From assembly GCF_036013915.1 (NCBI RefSeq), contig NZ_CP107899.1:7530001-7594000 (forward strand): a stretch of DNA of 64,000 nt. Direction: 5' to 3'. Source of the DNA: Streptomyces sp. NBC_00464. GTDB taxonomy: Bacteria > Actinomycetota > Actinomycetes > Streptomycetales > Streptomycetaceae. A model generated the notes under the pieces. It was given only the letters and a program-made list of their open reading frames with translations. It was not told the origin of the DNA and made no database searches. Made by a program: the position numbers and the translations under genes. Positions within the stretch are counted from its first letter, which is position 1, and every line of letters begins with the position of its first letter. This document shows positions 3 to 10,233 of the stretch, piece after piece.

Positions 3-1841
<1,839 letters not shown>

Positions 1842-2713: not shown

Positions 2714-3010
2714 GCCTTCCCCAATCGTCGTACGGACAGCAGATGGCAGACACGGTCCCAGACGCCCATCCTGCTTACGCTCAGTACTCAGGATTTGGCA
2801 TATGCCATCACTCAAGCCTGTGATGGCCAACCAAATAAGGGTTACTCACGCGGCGTCATCGAATACGCTCTGCAATTTTGGTGCGCCCCTGTACGAGCGA
2901 AGTCGGGCAACGGTCTCGCGGTGCAGGCGCCGGCAGGACCCTCCGTCTCACGGGGCGGGACAGCCCTTAGGCTGCGAACCGGCAACGGCCCCGACCCAGG
3001 AGCGCACCTC

Positions 3011-3559
3011 ATGTTCGACCCCGCCCGGAAGCACCCGTACGGCGATGCCCTTCGGCCGGACCAACTGCCCGCACCGCACCCCCTGTTGGAACCTCTGCTC
3101 GGATTCCTGGGCAGCTGGACCGGCGGGGGCCGCGGTGGGTATCCGACCCTTGCCGAGGAATTCGTGTACGGGCAGGAGGTCACCTTCAGTCATGACGGGC
3201 GGCCGTTCCTCCACTACGAGGCGCGCGCCTGGCTGCTGGACGCGGACGGTGACCCGCTGCGCCCTTCGGCGCGGGAGAGCGGCTGGTGGCGGATGCAGCC
3301 GGACGGGCGTGTAGAGGCGCTGATCACCCAGCCCACCGGCGTCGCGGAGATTCTGACCGGCCGTGCGGCCGACGGAGCGGCCGACCTCGCCACCCACCGA
3401 GTCGCCCTCACCCCCACTGCCAAGCAGGTCGACGCCACCCGTCGGCGCTATACGCTCAACGACGACGACACGCTCGACTTCACCCACGACCTCGCGGCGG
3501 TCGGCCTGCCCCTCCAGCACCACCTCTCGGCGCAACTGCGCCGCGCGGGCCGCGACTGA
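3011..3559 (+). CDS. Nitrobindin-like haem-binding beta-barrel protein (FABP-like family)
   Basis: 182-residue protein of the nitrobindin/THAP4-C family, small beta-barrels that bind ferric haem and take part in nitric oxide or peroxynitrite chemistry. The family signature is near the N-terminus in [15 protein letters not shown] (about residues 31-45). The C-terminal [13 protein letters not shown] carries the His that ligates haem in characterised members. The start at 3011 is preceded by AGGAG at good spacing; a longer frame from 2795 has no such site. No signal peptide, so cytosolic. The next gene on this strand begins 75 bases later and is unrelated. Ligand binding is inferred from the family only. 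Confidence 0.85.
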
Positions 3560-4068: not shown

Positions 4069-4074
4069 GTGGAC

Positions 4075-6312
4075 TCAGCGCAGCGCCTCGGGCAGCTTCT
4101 CCCGGTGGATGATGCCCAGGCACTGCGTGGCCCGGGTCAGGGCCACGTACAGATCACTGGTCCCGAACAGCGCAGGCTCCACGACCAGCACATGGTCGAA
4201 TTCGAGCCCCTTGGCCTGCCGGGGATCGAGCAGGACCACCGGGTGGGTCAGATCGGGCTCGGTGCCGGCCGTGACCCCCTCCAGGGGAGCGGCGATCTCC
4301 TGGTGGAGCGCCCTGGGCGCGATCACGGCGAGGCGCCCCTCCTCGGGCGTCAGCTCCACCACCGCCCGAGCCACCGCGCCCGCCAGGTCGTCCCCGGCGT
4401 CCCGCATCCACGGCACCTCGCCGGTGGACCGCACCGAGGCGGGCGGCTCGAAGGAGGGGTCGTGGGCGCGCAGTACCCTGGCGGCCAGCTCCATGATCTC
4501 GGCGGGCGTACGGTAGTTGACCTTGAGCGCGACGTGCTCGAAGCGGTCGTCGACGTACGGACCCAGGATCTTCTCCCACGAGCCGACCCCCGCCTCCTCC
4601 GAGGTCTGCGCGGGGTCGCCGACCAGGGTCATCGAGCGCGTCGGTGAGCGGCGCATGAGCAGCCGCCACGCCATCGGCGACAGCTCCTGCGCCTCGTCGA
4701 CGATGATGTGCCCGAAGGCCCAGGTACGGTCGGCGGCGGCGCGCTCGGCCGCGCTGCGGTGATCGGCCTCCTCCTGCCGTTCCGCCATCCGCTCGGCGTC
4801 GATGATGTCGTGGGCGGCCAGGACCTCGGACTCCTCGTCCTCGAACTCGAAGGACTCCGAGCCCCTCGACAGCTCCAGCACGCCCTGCGCATACGCGATC
4901 CGCTCCTGGCGCTCGGCCTCCGCGGCCGCCTGCTCGGCGCTGTCGTCTACCCCGAGCAGTTCCGCCGCCTCGTCGAGCAGCGGTACGTCCGCGGGGGTCC
5001 ACCGTCCGTCGCCGGGTGCACGCCGGATCGCCGCCGCGTCATCCTCCGGTACGTAGACGGGCTCGGCCAGGTAGTCGCCGAGGAACCCCTCCGGGGTGAG
5101 CGGCGGCCACAGCTCGTCGATGGCGCTGTGCACTGCCTTGCTGACGGCGACACCCTTGCCGAGCTGGGCGATGTCGTCGGGGCCGAGGAAGTTGGGACCG
5201 CCGTACGGGTCGGCACCGATGCGCTCCGTGAGCTGTGCGGTGAGGGCGTCGATGATCCGGAACGCGAAGTGCGGGCGGGCCAGGTTGTGCGGCAACAGGG
5301 TTTCGCGGGCCGCCTGCCGGGCCTCGTAGGCGATCTCCCAGTCCAGGATCAGGTCCCCGTCGTCGTGCCGGATGATCAGCGGGGCCCCGGGCTCGGGCAG
5401 CACCTGCCGGTCGCGTACGGCCATGGCGAGCGCCTCGGCCATGGGCTCAGCGCCCTTGACGGCGGCGGCGCGGGGCGTGTCGGTCCCGTCGGCGTGGACC
5501 CCGGGAAAGAGCTCGGCCTGAGTGGCGAGCAGCACTCCGGTCTCGCCGAGCGCGGGCAGCACTTCGCCGATGTAGCTCAGGAAGGCCGGGTTGGGGCCCA
5601 CGATCAGGACGGCGCGCTTGGCGAGCAGCTCACGGTGTTCGTACAGGAGGAACGCCGCCCGGTGCAGTGCCACCGCCGTCTTTCCGGTACCGGGCCCGCC
5701 CTCGACGACGAGCACACCGCGGTGCGGGGCGCGGATGATGCGGTCCTGCTCCGCCTGGATGGTCCGCACGATGTCGCCCATGCGGCCGGTCCGGGCGGAG
5801 TTCACGGCGGCGAGCAGCACGGTGTCGCCGCTCGGGTCCTCGAATCCGGTGCGCCGGCGGTCTCCGACGTCGAGGATCTCGTCGTGCAGCTCGGTGACGG
5901 AGCGGCCCTCGGTGGTGATGTGCCTGCGCCGGCGCAGTCCCATGGGCGTGTGACCGGTGGCGAGATAGAAGGGGCGGGCGACCGGCGCACGCCAGTCGAT
6001 CAGCAGAGGGGTGTGCGCGGTGTCGTCCTCGCGGATTCCGATGCGGCCGATATGGTGCGCGGCGCCGTCGGAGAGATCGATGCGGCCGAAACAGAGCGAG
6101 CCGTCCACCGCATTCAGGGCGGCCAGCAGACCCGAGCGTTCGGAGACGAGCACATCGCGTTCGAGACGGGCCTGCAGCCCGTTGCCGACCGGCGTCAGCG
6201 CGTCCTCGACGTGCTGAGCGGCGACTCCGCGCACCGCGTCGACACGTTCGTAGAGCCGGTCGATGAATTCCTGCTCTTTCTGCAACTCATCGATTTCCCG
6301 AGTTGACAACAT
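4075..6312 (-). CDS. helR: HelD/HelR-type UvrD-like ATPase, RNA polymerase recycling factor
   Basis: 745-residue superfamily 1 helicase-like ATPase. HelD proteins do not unwind DNA in the usual way. They pry stalled RNA polymerase off nucleic acid, and the actinobacterial HelR branch also displaces rifamycin from polymerase. Seen here: a charged N-terminal coiled coil (residues 1-40), Walker A GGPGTGKTAVAL with Lys211, the family insert, the DEAQELSPMAWRLLMRR motif (motif II) and the C-terminal GLEFDHVLVVEPALF / LYVALTRATQ motifs. The start could be ATG 6312 (GGGAG only 2 bases away) or TTG 6309 (better spacing of 5). The leader contains an unusual cluster of hairpins. Whether this one confers rifamycin tolerance cannot be read from sequence. 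Confidence 0.92.
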   Translation of the reverse strand: MLSTREIDELQKEQEFIDRLYERVDAVRGVAAQHVEDALTPVGNGLQARLERDVLVSERSGLLAALNAVDGSLCFGRIDLSDGAAHHIGRIGIREDDTAHTPLLIDWRAPVARPFYLATGHTPMGLRRRRHITTEGRSVTELHDEILDVGDRRRTGFEDPSGDTVLLAAVNSARTGRMGDIVRTIQAEQDRIIRAPHRGVLVVEGGPGTGKTAVALHRAAFLLYEHRELLAKRAVLIVGPNPAFLSYIGEVLPALGETGVLLATQAELFPGVHADGTDTPRAAAVKGAEPMAEALAMAVRDRQVLPEPGAPLIIRHDDGDLILDWEIAYEARQAARETLLPHNLARPHFAFRIIDALTAQLTERIGADPYGGPNFLGPDDIAQLGKGVAVSKAVHSAIDELWPPLTPEGFLGDYLAEPVYVPEDDAAAIRRAPGDGRWTPADVPLLDEAAELLGVDDSAEQAAAEAERQERIAYAQGVLELSRGSESFEFEDEESEVLAAHDIIDAERMAERQEEADHRSAAERAAADRTWAFGHIIVDEAQELSPMAWRLLMRRSPTRSMTLVGDPAQTSEEAGVGSWEKILGPYVDDRFEHVALKVNYRTPAEIMELAARVLRAHDPSFEPPASVRSTGEVPWMRDAGDDLAGAVARAVVELTPEEGRLAVIAPRALHQEIAAPLEGVTAGTEPDLTHPVVLLDPRQAKGLEFDHVLVVEPALFGTSDLYVALTRATQCLGIIHREKLPEALR

Positions 6313-6342
6313 TGCTCCCTGCCGGATATGGTGCTTCTTAGT

Positions 6343-6381
6343 GGCCCCCTGAGAGGGGCCTTTTCTGTGGGCGCACAGAAA
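6343..6381. promoter_or_regulatory. Paired hairpins in the helR leader
   Basis: Two adjacent inverted repeats lie just upstream of helR: GGCCCC-6-GGGGCC (6343-6360) followed by TTTT on the plus strand, and TTTCTGTG-4-CACAGAAA (6362-6381). Both flanking genes run on the minus strand. The first is therefore terminator-like only against plus-strand RNA, and on the helR transcript it would be a 5'-leader structure. A protein operator or leader-control role is inference. Confidence 0.45.
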
Positions 6382-6398
6382 GAATCAATATACCCGGG

Positions 6399-6434
6399 AA
6401 AACCCCCGGTCCACCATTGCGGACCGGGGGTTTT
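6399..6434 (-). terminator. Bidirectional intrinsic terminator after the M23 peptidase gene
   Basis: Perfect 14-base stem AAAACCCCCGGTCC / GGACCGGGGGTTTT with an 8-base loop. It has A and T tracts on both sides and sits 39 bases beyond the peptidase stop, so it separates that gene from helR. Confidence 0.85.
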
Positions 6435-6461
6435 CTGTGCTGTATGTCAGGTGATGTCGAC

Positions 6462-6799
6462 CGTGGTGCGGTTCAGTCCCACTGGTCCTGGTTGATGAAG
6501 CGGCTGTAGCCCCGCCAGGAGTTGGGGCCCATCACGCCGTCGATGGGTCCCGTGTAGCCGTGGGCCGCGGCCAGCCGCTGGACGGCGGCCCAGGTGTTGG
6601 TTCCGGGTACGCCGTCGAGGGGGCCGGTATAGCCCCAGTTACGCATGTTCAGCTGGAGTGCCGCGTAGGTGTTGGGGCCCGGGACGCCGTCGATCGGTCC
6701 GGTGTACCCCGACTGGATCCGCAGCCAGTTCTGCGTCCGCTGCCACATCACCGGCCCCGGAACACCGTCCTGCTCCGTCGACGTCTTCGGCAACCCACC
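6462..6799 (-). repeat. Left arm of a 338-bp inverted repeat
   Basis: Read base by base against the reverse complement of 8240-8577, I found no mismatch over 338 bases. It covers the C-terminal 108 codons of the M23 peptidase, its stop codon and 11 bases beyond. Identity ends abruptly on both sides. Confidence 0.95.
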
Positions 6800-7339
6800 A
6801 CCGCCCCCGAGGTAGTTCAGCGGGTTGACGCGGGTGCCGCCCGGGGTGATCAGATGCCAGTGCACGTGCGGTCCGGTGGAGCTCCCGGAACCGGGCGCGC
6901 CGACGGCACCCCCGGAGCGGCCGACGATTCCGCCCTTGCCGACCGAGGCGCCGTTGGCCAGCAGGAACTGCGACAGATGCATGTACTGCGTCCGGTAGCC
7001 GTCGCTGTGGGTGATGGTCACCGTGTGGCCGCCGGTGCCGTTGTCCGGGATGTTCGTGATGACTCCGGCTCCCGCGGCCGGCAGCGCGGTGCCGACCCCC
7101 ATCCCGTAGTCGATTCCACCCAGGGAGCCGTCGTTGAGGTGGTCCTGCCAGGTGCCGGTGATCTGATAGCCGCTGAACGGGTTGTAGATGTCCAGCGCCT
7201 GGGCGGGGTTGCCCGAGAACAGGACCCCGCCGGCCGCCAGGCCGAGCGTGGTGACCGAGCCCCGCAGTAACGTGCGCCTGCTTATCTCAAGCCGCGGCCG
7301 GATCTCCCGGCCGTCTTCGGATCCGTGCTTCTCACACAC
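6473..7339 (-). CDS. Secreted M23 metallo-endopeptidase with three peptidoglycan-binding-like repeats
   Basis: Zinc peptidase predicted to cut peptide cross-links of peptidoglycan outside the cell. A Tat signal (SRRTLLRG, then a hydrophobic stretch) covers about residues 20-50. The M23 domain has GGIDYG with Asp77 and the GPHVHWH motif (His158, His160, His162). After a Gly linker come three tandem repeats of type GYTGPIDGVPGPNTYAALQ to the C-terminus, identical to those in the divergent muramidase. The start is GTG 7339, preceded by GGGAG at spacing 5; the ATG-like frame to 7393 has no ribosome site. Codon 24 is TTA, so translation may depend on bldA. Confidence 0.92.
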   Translation of the reverse strand: MCEKHGSEDGREIRPRLEISRRTLLRGSVTTLGLAAGGVLFSGNPAQALDIYNPFSGYQITGTWQDHLNDGSLGGIDYGMGVGTALPAAGAGVITNIPDNGTGGHTVTITHSDGYRTQYMHLSQFLLANGASVGKGGIVGRSGGAVGAPGSGSSTGPHVHWHLITPGGTRVNPLNYLGGGGGLPKTSTEQDGVPGPVMWQRTQNWLRIQSGYTGPIDGVPGPNTYAALQLNMRNWGYTGPLDGVPGTNTWAAVQRLAAAHGYTGPIDGVMGPNSWRGYSRFINQDQWD

Positions 7340-7483
7340 AGCAACTCCCTTATGAATAAGGCTACTTGGCCTGGCCAGAGGGTGCGGGGTCACGGTAGCC
7401 TACGCGCATAGATTTTGATAAGCACATGACATGTTCACTCCTGGTGCATCCGCGCCGGGATCCCCGCCCCCACCGGAGAAGAC
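7340..7483. promoter_or_regulatory. Divergent promoter region between the two lytic enzyme genes
   Basis: This 144-base region is AT-richer than its neighbours and must hold both start signals. It contains the palindromes CTTATGAATAAG (7349-7360) and ACATGACATGT (7424-7434), candidates for regulator sites. No clear -10/-35 pair could be assigned. Confidence 0.4.
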
Positions 7484-8566
7484 ATGCGTAGGAGAACCCT
7501 GATTCGTGGTGCCGTGGCGACGGCGCTGGCCCCGGCCGGAATCGTCCTGGCCGCCGGTGCCGCGGCTGCCGACGGTCCTGTCGGCACCCGGGCGGCCGAC
7601 CTGGAGGGCGTGGACGTCTCCAACTATCAGCAGGGCATCGACTATGCCCGGGTGGCGGCGGAGGGTCGGCGCTTCGTCATCGCCAAGGCCGGGGGGTGTC
7701 AGCTTGCCGAGGGCCCCTACACCACATCCTCCTATCCCGGCCATGTCGACGGAGCCCGAGCCGCCGGACTGCGAGTGGGGCACTACTGGTTGTCGGGGGA
7801 CTTCCTCGCTCCCACTGCCGCCGCCGACTACTTCGTGGACCACCTGCACGACTACCGGGTCGGCGACGTGCTCGCGCTGGATGTCGAGGTGCTGGACGAC
7901 TCGACCCGCCTGTGGGGCGACGCGGACGTGTCCGCCTGGTTCAACCGTGTGCGGGAGCGGGTCGGCAGTTATGTGCCCTGGTTCTACATCAGCACCGGAG
8001 CACTGCGGTCCGGCACCTGGAGCCGCACGATCGCCGCCGGCGCCCATCTGTGGGCCGCCTCCTGGGGGCCGAACGACGGCACCTGGCCCGGTGCACCCGA
8101 CCTCGGCGGCCGCTATCCCGACTGGGCGGCGCACCAGTACACCTCCGTGGGGTCCGCCGGTGGCGCTTCCCCGGTCGATCTGAACCTCGCCCGCTCCTGG
8201 GCGTTCGACCTCACCGAGCCGACCGACCCGCCACCGGACGGTGGGTTGCCGAAGACGTCGACGGAGCAGGACGGTGTTCCGGGGCCGGTGATGTGGCAGC
8301 GGACGCAGAACTGGCTGCGGATCCAGTCGGGGTACACCGGACCGATCGACGGCGTCCCGGGCCCCAACACCTACGCGGCACTCCAGCTGAACATGCGTAA
8401 CTGGGGCTATACCGGCCCCCTCGACGGCGTACCCGGAACCAACACCTGGGCCGCCGTCCAGCGGCTGGCCGCGGCCCACGGCTACACGGGACCCATCGAC
8501 GGCGTGATGGGCCCCAACTCCTGGCGGGGCTACAGCCGCTTCATCAACCAGGACCAGTGGGACTGA
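7484..8566 (+). CDS. Secreted GH25 muramidase (lysozyme) with three peptidoglycan-binding-like repeats
   Basis: Exported 360-residue 1,4-beta-N-acetylmuramidase of the Cellosyl/GH25 type. It has a Tat-like signal (MRRRTLIRGAVATALAPAG, residues 1-30). The catalytic barrel begins GVDVSNYQ with Asp44, and the acid/base pair lies in LALDVEV (Asp133, Glu135). From about residue 253 the last 108 residues are identical to the M23 peptidase tail: three GYTGPxDGV repeats that probably anchor the enzyme in the wall. GGAGAAG precedes the start at 7484. Together the pair would cut both the glycan and the peptide parts of the wall. Confidence 0.93.
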   Translation: MRRRTLIRGAVATALAPAGIVLAAGAAAADGPVGTRAADLEGVDVSNYQQGIDYARVAAEGRRFVIAKAGGCQLAEGPYTTSSYPGHVDGARAAGLRVGHYWLSGDFLAPTAAADYFVDHLHDYRVGDVLALDVEVLDDSTRLWGDADVSAWFNRVRERVGSYVPWFYISTGALRSGTWSRTIAAGAHLWAASWGPNDGTWPGAPDLGGRYPDWAAHQYTSVGSAGGASPVDLNLARSWAFDLTEPTDPPPDGGLPKTSTEQDGVPGPVMWQRTQNWLRIQSGYTGPIDGVPGPNTYAALQLNMRNWGYTGPLDGVPGTNTWAAVQRLAAAHGYTGPIDGVMGPNSWRGYSRFINQDQWD

Positions 8567-8577
8567 ACCGCACCACG
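8240..8577 (+). repeat. Right arm of the 338-bp inverted repeat
   Basis: Reverse complement of 6462-6799 with no difference seen. It encodes the muramidase tail, runs through its TGA and ends 11 bases later. Confidence 0.95.
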
Positions 8578-8645
8578 CCGGCACCCGCATCCCGCGGGCG
8601 GCGAACCGGCGTCGGTTCAGGGGCCCGGCCCTCCGGTTGTCGCGG

Positions 8646-9461
8646 TCACGCCCGGGTGAGTACGTCCTGAAGCCGTGCCGCGTACGCACGGGGGTGCGTG
8701 GTGTTGCCGTTGTGCCCGCCGGGAAACGGCACGGTCCGCCGGCCCATCAGTTCGGCGAGGCTCTGGGCGCACTGTCCGACGAAGGCCGACGGCGCCGTGG
8801 TGCTGCCGCAGGCGGCGACGATGCGTACGGGCGCTGCCCGCAGGGACTCCGGGGCGAGTTCGGCCTCGGCCACTGCCGTGAAGTCGCGGTCGATGAAGAA
8901 GTCGAAGTTGGCGAGGCGGCGCGGGGTGAGCGGCATGGGGGTGAGGTCGGGCTCGGTCTCCTGGTGTGCGGGATCGATGCCGAGCACTCTGGCGATTTCG
9001 GGGAAGGCCGCTTCGAGCCCGCCGTCGCGGTAGACCTTCTGCAGGTGCGCGAGTTCGGCGGTGTGGCGCTCGCGCTGCCCGGTGGGCAGCAGTGACGGTG
9101 TGACGGGATCGTGGGCGACGAGCCGTTCCAGCTGTTCGGGGTGGGTGATCGCGAGGTGCAGTCCGATGGCGGCGCCCATGCTGCATCCGAGCATCAGGGC
9201 GGGCTCGTCCGTCAGTTCGGCCAGGATCCGGTGCACGTCGTCGGCGTGCTGCGTCATGCTCACCCGTTGCCCGGGATCGGCGAGCGTGCTGCGGGACAGG
9301 CCCCTCCGGTCGTATGTGACCACCGTGTAGCGGTCGACGAGCAGATCGACCAGGTCGGTGCTGCGGTCGGCGTCGCCCTCGCCGCTCTGGGAGACGAGCA
9401 GCAGCGGGCCGGAACCGCGGACTTCGTAGTGGAGTGTGGCGCCGTCGGTGGCAAGGAACAT
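8646..9461 (-). CDS. Alpha/beta hydrolase
   Basis: 271-residue hydrolase of the alpha/beta fold. It has a nucleophile elbow GCSMG (Ser94), an oxyanion segment VSQSGEGDADR near the N-terminus and a C-terminal FPGGHNGNTTHP with the likely catalytic His. The start at 9461 is fixed by a perfect AGGAGGT; the frame upstream to 9530 would enter the regulator's operator region. Cytosolic, substrate unknown. It is divergent from a MarR-type gene with GATGCATC repeats between them, so it is the likely target of that regulator, in the manner of small detoxification pairs. Confidence 0.88.
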   Translation of the reverse strand: MFLATDGATLHYEVRGSGPLLLVSQSGEGDADRSTDLVDLLVDRYTVVTYDRRGLSRSTLADPGQRVSMTQHADDVHRILAELTDEPALMLGCSMGAAIGLHLAITHPEQLERLVAHDPVTPSLLPTGQRERHTAELAHLQKVYRDGGLEAAFPEIARVLGIDPAHQETEPDLTPMPLTPRRLANFDFFIDRDFTAVAEAELAPESLRAAPVRIVAACGSTTAPSAFVGQCAQSLAELMGRRTVPFPGGHNGNTTHPRAYAARLQDVLTRA

Positions 9462-9525
9462 CGGACCTCCTGTGTCGGTGGGGCATGCGGGGCGGCGAGC
9501 ACCTCGACTGTCCTCCGTAACGTAG

Positions 9526-9559
9526 TGCATCTATGATGATGCATCAATAAAGATGCATC
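9526..9559. promoter_or_regulatory. Repeated GATGCATC operator between hydrolase and MarR genes
   Basis: Two perfect palindromes GATGCATC occur at 9538-9545 and 9552-9559, 14 bases start to start, with a further TGCATC just upstream at 9527-9532. The sites lie between the divergent hydrolase and MarR-type genes, where an autoregulatory MarR dimer would bind. Confidence 0.65.
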
Positions 9560-9582
9560 GTTAGTGATGAATCTGGAGTAGC

Positions 9583-10062
9583 ATGCGGGCCATGAGCCCC
9601 TCGATGACCCCGGTTCGGCTGTTCCTCCTCGGCCGGACTCTGATGAAGATCGGGGAGGAGGCCCTTCCGGAGCCGCCTCCCTCGGCGGACACGCGCCGCG
9701 TCGGCACCCGTGCGGCTCTCGTCGTGCTGAGTGACCTCCTCGGCCACCCGGACACCTCGGTGAGTGCGATCGCGGTGCGCACGGGGCTGCCCCAGAGTCA
9801 GGTCTCGGGCGCGGTGGCCCGGCTGAAGGACGCGGGTTCGATCGTGACGGCGCCCGACCCCGCCGACGGCAGGCGGCAGTTGATCCGAAGGGCGCCCGAT
9901 GTGTCCGATCGGGTTGCCGAGGTGCGGGCGTCCCGGATCGACGACGCGCTGGCCGCAGCCCTCGGTACGGACGACCCCGGGCGGCTGCGCGAGGTCGCCG
10001 AAGCTCTCGATGTGCTGGCCCGGCACCTCACCCCTGAGGCGGTGGGCCGCCTGCGGGCGTGA
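9583..10062 (+). CDS. MarR-type transcriptional regulator
   Basis: 159-residue DNA-binding protein. The winged helix spans about residues 45-110: TSVSAIAVRTGLPQSQVSGAVARLKDAG is the helix-turn-helix, and PDPADGRRQLIRRAP is the wing with the Asp-Gly-Arg-Arg signature typical of MarR. A C-terminal helix would complete the dimer interface. The start at 9583 has GGAG at spacing 6. It is divergent from the alpha/beta hydrolase with repeated palindromes between, which suggests autoregulation and control of the hydrolase. Confidence 0.85.
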   Translation: MRAMSPSMTPVRLFLLGRTLMKIGEEALPEPPPSADTRRVGTRAALVVLSDLLGHPDTSVSAIAVRTGLPQSQVSGAVARLKDAGSIVTAPDPADGRRQLIRRAPDVSDRVAEVRASRIDDALAAALGTDDPGRLREVAEALDVLARHLTPEAVGRLRA

Positions 10063-10233
10063 AGCGGGGCCGGGTGCCCGCGTAGGCCGAACGGCTCGGG
10101 GCGGGGGGTCGGCCCGATATCGCTCGACAGGCCGACGGCGGCGCTCATATGATCGCGGGACGGCATCGCGTGCTGGTCACCGGCTGGGTGAGGCATGGAG
10201 GTGTCCGTGAGATGCCTTCGGAGGCATTCCACT

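Follow-up and report, generated by a model that had tools for sequence, protein, structure and literature searches.

The window analysed here, a 64-kb stretch (64,000 nucleotides, nt) of Streptomyces sp. NBC_00464, lies on the 8.47-Mb contig of a genome of 8,961,255 bases in 3 contigs and carries two divergent genes for wall-acting proteins, one with an M23 peptidase domain and one with a GH25 muramidase domain, whose 3' ends form a perfect inverted repeat. A comparison with related genomes indicates that the two arms of such repeats evolve in concert, and that the 1.4-kb core between them has been inverted several times, between species, relative to its flanks. The module consists of the following features (window coordinates):

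6473..7393, minus strand: M23 peptidase-domain gene with an N-terminal signal-like motif (RR-x-L-L-RG) and a C-terminal peptidoglycan-binding region; its start is uncertain, GTG at 7393 giving the longest open reading frame (ORF)
7484..8566, plus strand: GH25 muramidase gene with a C-terminal peptidoglycan-binding region
7394..7483, no strand: divergent intergenic region, 90 nt long if the longest M23 ORF is correct; presumed site of both promoters, moving with the core
6462..6799, minus strand: inverted-repeat arm A, the last 108 codons, stop and 11 further nt of the M23-domain gene; PG_binding_1-like
8240..8577, plus strand: inverted-repeat arm B, the last 108 codons, stop and 11 further nt of the GH25 gene; exact reverse complement of arm A
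6800..8239, no strand: invertible core, holding the catalytic-domain part of each gene and, between them, the divergent intergenic region; reversed in 6 of 9 genomes with a readable helicase flank (see below)

An earlier note, made from the letters of the window, had described an exact 338-bp inverted repeat of the tails of two divergent genes, and a repeat search bore this out for the arms, the codons, the stop and the 11 nt behind it: 6462-6799 and 8240-8577 are 100% complementary over 338 nt and separated by 1440 nt. They are the only pair of inverted repeats of at least 60 nt that the search detected in the window, and a genome-wide search with the arm, in which the best 40 of 181 first-look candidates were scored, gave two matches, both of them the arms of the window. 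A perfect match of 338 nt is far beyond chance. The arm starts at codon 253 of the 360-codon GH25 ORF and runs through the remaining 108 codons and the TGA to 11 nt beyond; its counterpart is the equivalent C-terminal part of the M23 ORF (7393-6473, minus strand).

The two genes are non-paralogous and have only the C-terminal peptidoglycan-binding region in common. All domain assignments lie above the Pfam cut-offs, with 73.9 bits for PF01183 (GH25) in the GH25 ORF, 62.9 bits for PF01551 (Peptidase_M23) in the M23 ORF and 28.2-28.9 bits for PG_binding_1 in the shared tail. In the canonical M23 motif, HxGxD, the His is the first zinc ligand; this residue is Leu in 14 of 15 aligned M23 sequences, including that of the window, and His in G267 alone, while the HxH motif is retained in all 15. 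Because the canonical ligand is replaced, the M23 protein may be degenerate and perhaps no active endopeptidase. Both proteins open with the motif RR-x-L-[LI]-RG (7250-7290 on the minus strand and 7484-7510 on the plus strand), which resembles a twin-arginine export signal. A promoter scan listed no sigma-70-like match in the intergenic region 7394-7483.

The relatives named here are Streptomyces species plus one Wenjunlia, each represented by one genome per species. A full-length GH25 match at E < 1e-150 was obtained in 5 of 295 genomes of the genus (that of the window, G052, G166, G065 and G019), and a repetition of the genus search at a different completeness cut-off yielded no additional pair. 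Divergent pairs with both arms readable are present in the window, G052, G166, G065, RKAG290, sk2.1, AW19M42 and NBRC 109706; the pairs of Wenjunlia vitaminophila, S. poriferorum (G372), S. laculatispora (G354) and S. atratus each have one arm that is cut or gapped. The first seven genomes with both arms readable constitute the set of resolved homogenised pairs. Outside this set stand NBRC 109706 (83.3% arm identity), G019, where the genes are unlinked, the distant pairs of G267, G364 and G381, and S. poriferorum, S. laculatispora and S. atratus, as well as W. vitaminophila, whose second arm copy lies at a contig end (336/337), and G203, whose GH25 gene is mostly deleted and whose remaining arm matches over 169 nt at 97.6%. 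In G203 the GH25 gene has been reduced to part of the tail and a short start piece (L036 6569-6784), and the M23 gene and its arm remain.

When their last 324 nt are compared, the arms within a genome agree at 324/324 positions in the window, G052 and AW19M42, at 323/324 in sk2.1, 321/324 in RKAG290, 319/324 in G166 and 316/324 in G065, whereas arms from different genomes of the seven show a mean identity of 86.0% (81.5-90.7%, 84 comparisons). In all seven pairs, therefore, the arms are closer to each other (97.5-100%) than to those of other genomes, which settles in favour of homogenisation the alignment against orthologues that the earlier note had proposed as a check. The same holds at synonymous sites, with 3 of 756 codons differing synonymously within genomes, summed over the seven pairs, whereas 42 comparisons of the same gene in different genomes gave 24.9 of 108 on average (16-34). 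On a tree of the arms, the two arms of each genome pair together in 7/7 genomes; three pairs are identical, three are supported at 100/99 or 100/100, and that of G166 at 94/77, its near twin being S. laculatispora, which has one arm only. The boundaries of the repeat are nearly constant across species, which begins in the linker, 318-330 nt ahead of the stop codon, and reaches 6-11 nt beyond it (28 nt in AW19M42). The arms thus evolve in concert. A contrasting case is G019, where the genes are far apart on the same contig, at 4.34 and 1.55 Mb: their tails agree at 252/324 positions (77.8%) and group with different relatives on the arm tree. Among the linked pairs compared, arm identity looks bimodal, at either 97.5-100% or 75-83%, and nothing was seen in between.

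The orientation of the core was scored relative to the helicase gene on one side of it, and the flanks contain the following features:

4075..6312, minus strand: gene of a HelD-like UvrD-type helicase, here called HelD; conserved flank used for orientation scoring
6398..6435, minus strand: terminator-like 17-bp hairpin in the HelD-side flank, behind whichever gene faces HelD
8646..9530, minus strand: alpha/beta-hydrolase gene, the flank on the other side

The M23 gene faces HelD in three of the nine readable genomes (the window, G065 and AW19M42, the latter with a spacing of about 2 kb). In the other six it is the GH25 gene, namely in G166, RKAG290, sk2.1, S. poriferorum and S. laculatispora, and as a remnant in G203. 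Nucleotide alignments show collinear flanks, a reversed core and inversion ends inside the arms. In RKAG290, for example, plus-strand matches cover window positions 574-1841, 4074-6792 and 8641-10074 and a minus-strand match covers 6470-8569, an inversion bounded by the arms. The same reversal is seen in G166, in sk2.1 and in what is assembled of S. poriferorum and S. laculatispora, and the alignments of G065 and AW19M42 to the window are collinear. The count leaves aside or43 (G070), where a run of N adjoins one arm and the core is unassembled (arms 299/299 identical), G052, where HelD is absent from the 16 kb examined and a gene for a THAP4-like protein lies on the GH25 side, and W. vitaminophila and NBRC 109706, which show no orthologous HelD flank in the stretch examined. 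It also omits S. atratus, whose HelD-side arm adjoins a run of N; this arm is 99.3% identical to the M23 arm, which fits a GH25 gene facing HelD. Three changes of orientation are needed on the rpoB tree and on the HelD tree (nine genomes each) and likewise on a tree of the GH25 catalytic part (eight genomes), with a bootstrap 5-95% range of 3-3 on each of them. The core has thus been inverted several times between species. The prediction that a flip would leave two intact genes agrees with the core lying either way round between collinear flanks and with both genes being open in the resolved pairs, and meets an exception in G203 with its largely deleted GH25 gene.

Several observations weigh against this picture of conversion and inversion or limit it. 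The linked pair of NBRC 109706 is unhomogenised (270/324), even though the arm tree keeps its two arms side by side (support 90/78), and so are the linked distant pairs of G267, G364 and G381 (75-78% over 510-524 nt); linkage alone is therefore insufficient. When the orientation labels are shuffled, a mean of 2.6-2.7 changes is needed compared to the 3 observed; the labels show no clustering beyond that of shuffled ones, and orientation thus carries no phylogenetic signal. This would fit frequent flipping, but random misassembly would look alike. For AW19M42, sk2.1, S. poriferorum and S. laculatispora, four of the nine, orientation was read from draft contigs, in which a misjoin could have occurred, since the arm exceeds a short read. 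The longer contigs alone (window, G065, G166, G203 and RKAG290), which are presumably long-read assemblies, require two changes by a hand count on the rpoB tree. Finally, the evidence for inversion is between species, with one genome each, and no within-strain variation was seen. The distant divergent M23-GH25 pairs on L044, L081 and L082 show several overlapping matches to peptidoglycan-binding repeats, and their inverted arms are 75-78% alike.

We consider it likely that homologous recombination between the arms accounts for these patterns, conversion homogenising them and an occasional crossover inverting the core, and both processes would be of the RecA type. Non-crossover repair would copy one arm onto the other, and a crossover between the arms would flip the 1.4-kb core. 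With the arms in frame and the upstream region enclosed by the core, each product should keep two intact genes and would hence be tolerated. Arm identity may in this way be self-sustaining, while pairs that have drifted to about 83% or less, or have become separated, would escape conversion.

Homogenisation and inversion could also both result from RecA-independent template switching between the arms at replication forks, which we regard as unlikely. A spacer of 1440 nt is, by general knowledge, long for switching at a fork, although where the inverted repeats are short, such switching is reported to produce both homogenised arms and inverted spacers (PMC8604942), and the pneumococcal spnIII inversions, including those at its 333-bp repeat, were independent of RecA and depended only in part on the recombinase CreX (PMC6620402). 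Quite improbable is the view that the homogenisation is real and that species acquired the two orientations as old alleles by transfer from one another, with no repeated inversion. The HelD and rpoB trees do disagree in places, for instance over where AW19M42 belongs, a genome with a partial rpoB (2159/3096 nt); however, the trees of the HelD flank, the GH25 core and rpoB each need three changes, and none of them groups the genomes by orientation.

A dedicated site-specific invertase acting at a short site inside the arms, with arm identity as a side effect, would explain that orientation varies among genomes, and the longest invariant run across the 14 arms of the seven pairs, 21 nt, would be enough for part of a site. 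This run falls in a conserved coding stretch, however, and the likeness along the whole length of the arms is left unexplained by site-specific exchange. The repeats of site-specific invertons are typically about 10-40 nt long, whereas the arms of the window measure 338 nt and lie within coding sequence. Moreover, none of the 14 window ORFs scanned has a Pfam recombinase match, a scan that is local to the window and in which 4 of the 14 gave no match at all. Taken together, we find such an enzyme very improbable. We give practically no credence to independent recent duplications of the tail in each lineage, or assembly collapse, as the origin of the identity, even though the arms of the window are exactly identical and draft contigs end or have runs of N within or beside the arms: the boundaries are nearly identical in the species compared, more distant pairs also carry the region in both genes, and collapse is unlikely as a general cause because four of the seven pairs were resolved with 1, 3, 5 and 8 differences per 324 sites. 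The earlier note had offered recent duplication or continuing gene conversion as alternatives; the former was rejected on account of the nearly shared boundaries and the distant pairs, and the latter is supported by the greater likeness within genomes in all seven pairs. Caution is nevertheless advisable with draft Streptomyces assemblies, which end or gap at such repeats.

Neither gene of the resolved pairs has lost its reading frame, tail or upstream region, and the ORFs and the intergenic region stay together. A flip changes the 3' neighbour of each gene, including which of them meets the strong terminator-like hairpin, and may otherwise be silent. This GC-rich hairpin of 17 bp (6398-6435), which is flanked by AAAA and UUUU, was spotted by eye, being unlisted in the promoter and terminator scan, and was then folded (-34.8 kcal/mol, z -5.55). 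A hairpin of the same sequence type lies at most 200 nt from the stop of the HelD-facing gene in 7 of 8 genomes with sequence there, AW19M42 being the exception, and on the other-side flank in 0 of 8 examined, where G065 carries a different 16-bp hairpin. It might be imagined that the inversion serves as a functional 3'-end switch, in which the M23 or the GH25 gene alternately runs into the HelD-side terminator, the partner reads into the other flank, and selection keeps the arms identical; we consider this very doubtful. If true, a population would alternate in where the transcripts of two wall-acting genes end and in their read-through.

Some further observations concern the flanks themselves. 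A sigma-70-like match at 6303-6360 (plus strand) overlaps the start of HelD in antisense, with a terminator-like hairpin behind it, an arrangement suggestive of a very short transcript directed away from HelD. A gene for a THAP4-like heme-binding protein (window 2795-3559) lies between HelD and a gene here called KatG in the window, S. poriferorum and or43. Five genomes have it beyond the module, a separate local rearrangement (L034, L036, L045, L047, L049, L052), and there its partner changes as well: AW19M42 has it on the GH25 side, and G166, G203, RKAG290 and S. laculatispora have it on the M23 side; in the RKAG290 alignment, window 2961-3545, within this gene, is relocated separately from the core. 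In G166 (L034 11229-11602) and S. laculatispora (L052 5176-5534), the matches to the alpha/beta-hydrolase gene consist of separate fragments only.

Among the titles and abstracts of the literature surveyed, mostly top-ranked results, none described such an M23-GH25 pair or a module of coding tails from two non-paralogous genes with frame-restoring flips that recur between bacterial species. Site-specific invertons and shufflons share with the module the reversible inversion between inverted repeats and would differ from it in their short sites, their dedicated recombinase and their switch of expression or proteins. In the slp locus of Lactobacillus acidophilus, an inverting segment with two surface-protein genes that share sequence reportedly swaps an active and a silent gene (Boot, 1996, is said to have described it), unlike the present module, in which each gene keeps its own upstream region. 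Ectopic recombination between the terminal inverted repeats of insertion sequences in Wolbachia likewise flips a small segment in natural bacterial genomes, but between transposon ends rather than coding tails (PMC3004938). In Helicobacter pylori, intragenic inverted repeats bound inversions, are near-identical within the genome in some strains and have been attributed to homologous recombination; this concerns paralogous genes and larger rearrangements in one species (PMC3046158), instead of two non-paralogous genes with a common tail only.

The closest precedents are the flip/flop region of Saccharomyces and the tuf genes of Salmonella, and arm homogenisation together with inversion is already known. 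In Salmonella, recombination both maintains the likeness of such inverted homologous genes and gives rise to inversions, which were recovered between inverted cassettes in 5/59 selected clones and are cited at up to a quarter for tuf (PMC8262849). These are whole paralogous genes with inversions under laboratory selection, in contrast to a local module inverted between species. For the flip/flop region on yeast chromosome XIV, gene conversion with occasional crossover has been proposed, the same link as suggested here, for a 24-kb region of a eukaryote with 4.2-kb repeats containing whole paralogous genes (PMC9731477), as opposed to tails of about 330 nt of non-paralogous bacterial genes and a 1.4-kb core. 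Arm homogenisation, repeated change of orientation on the tree and near-constant repeat boundaries, as expected for a system of the flip/flop type, were all found among the M23-GH25 pairs. In these pairs, a natural bacterial system, genomes record homogenisation as well as repeated inversion, and the anatomy makes every inversion harmless to the reading frames. The seemingly bimodal identity makes it directly testable how mutation and conversion are balanced and where a repeat escapes from that balance.
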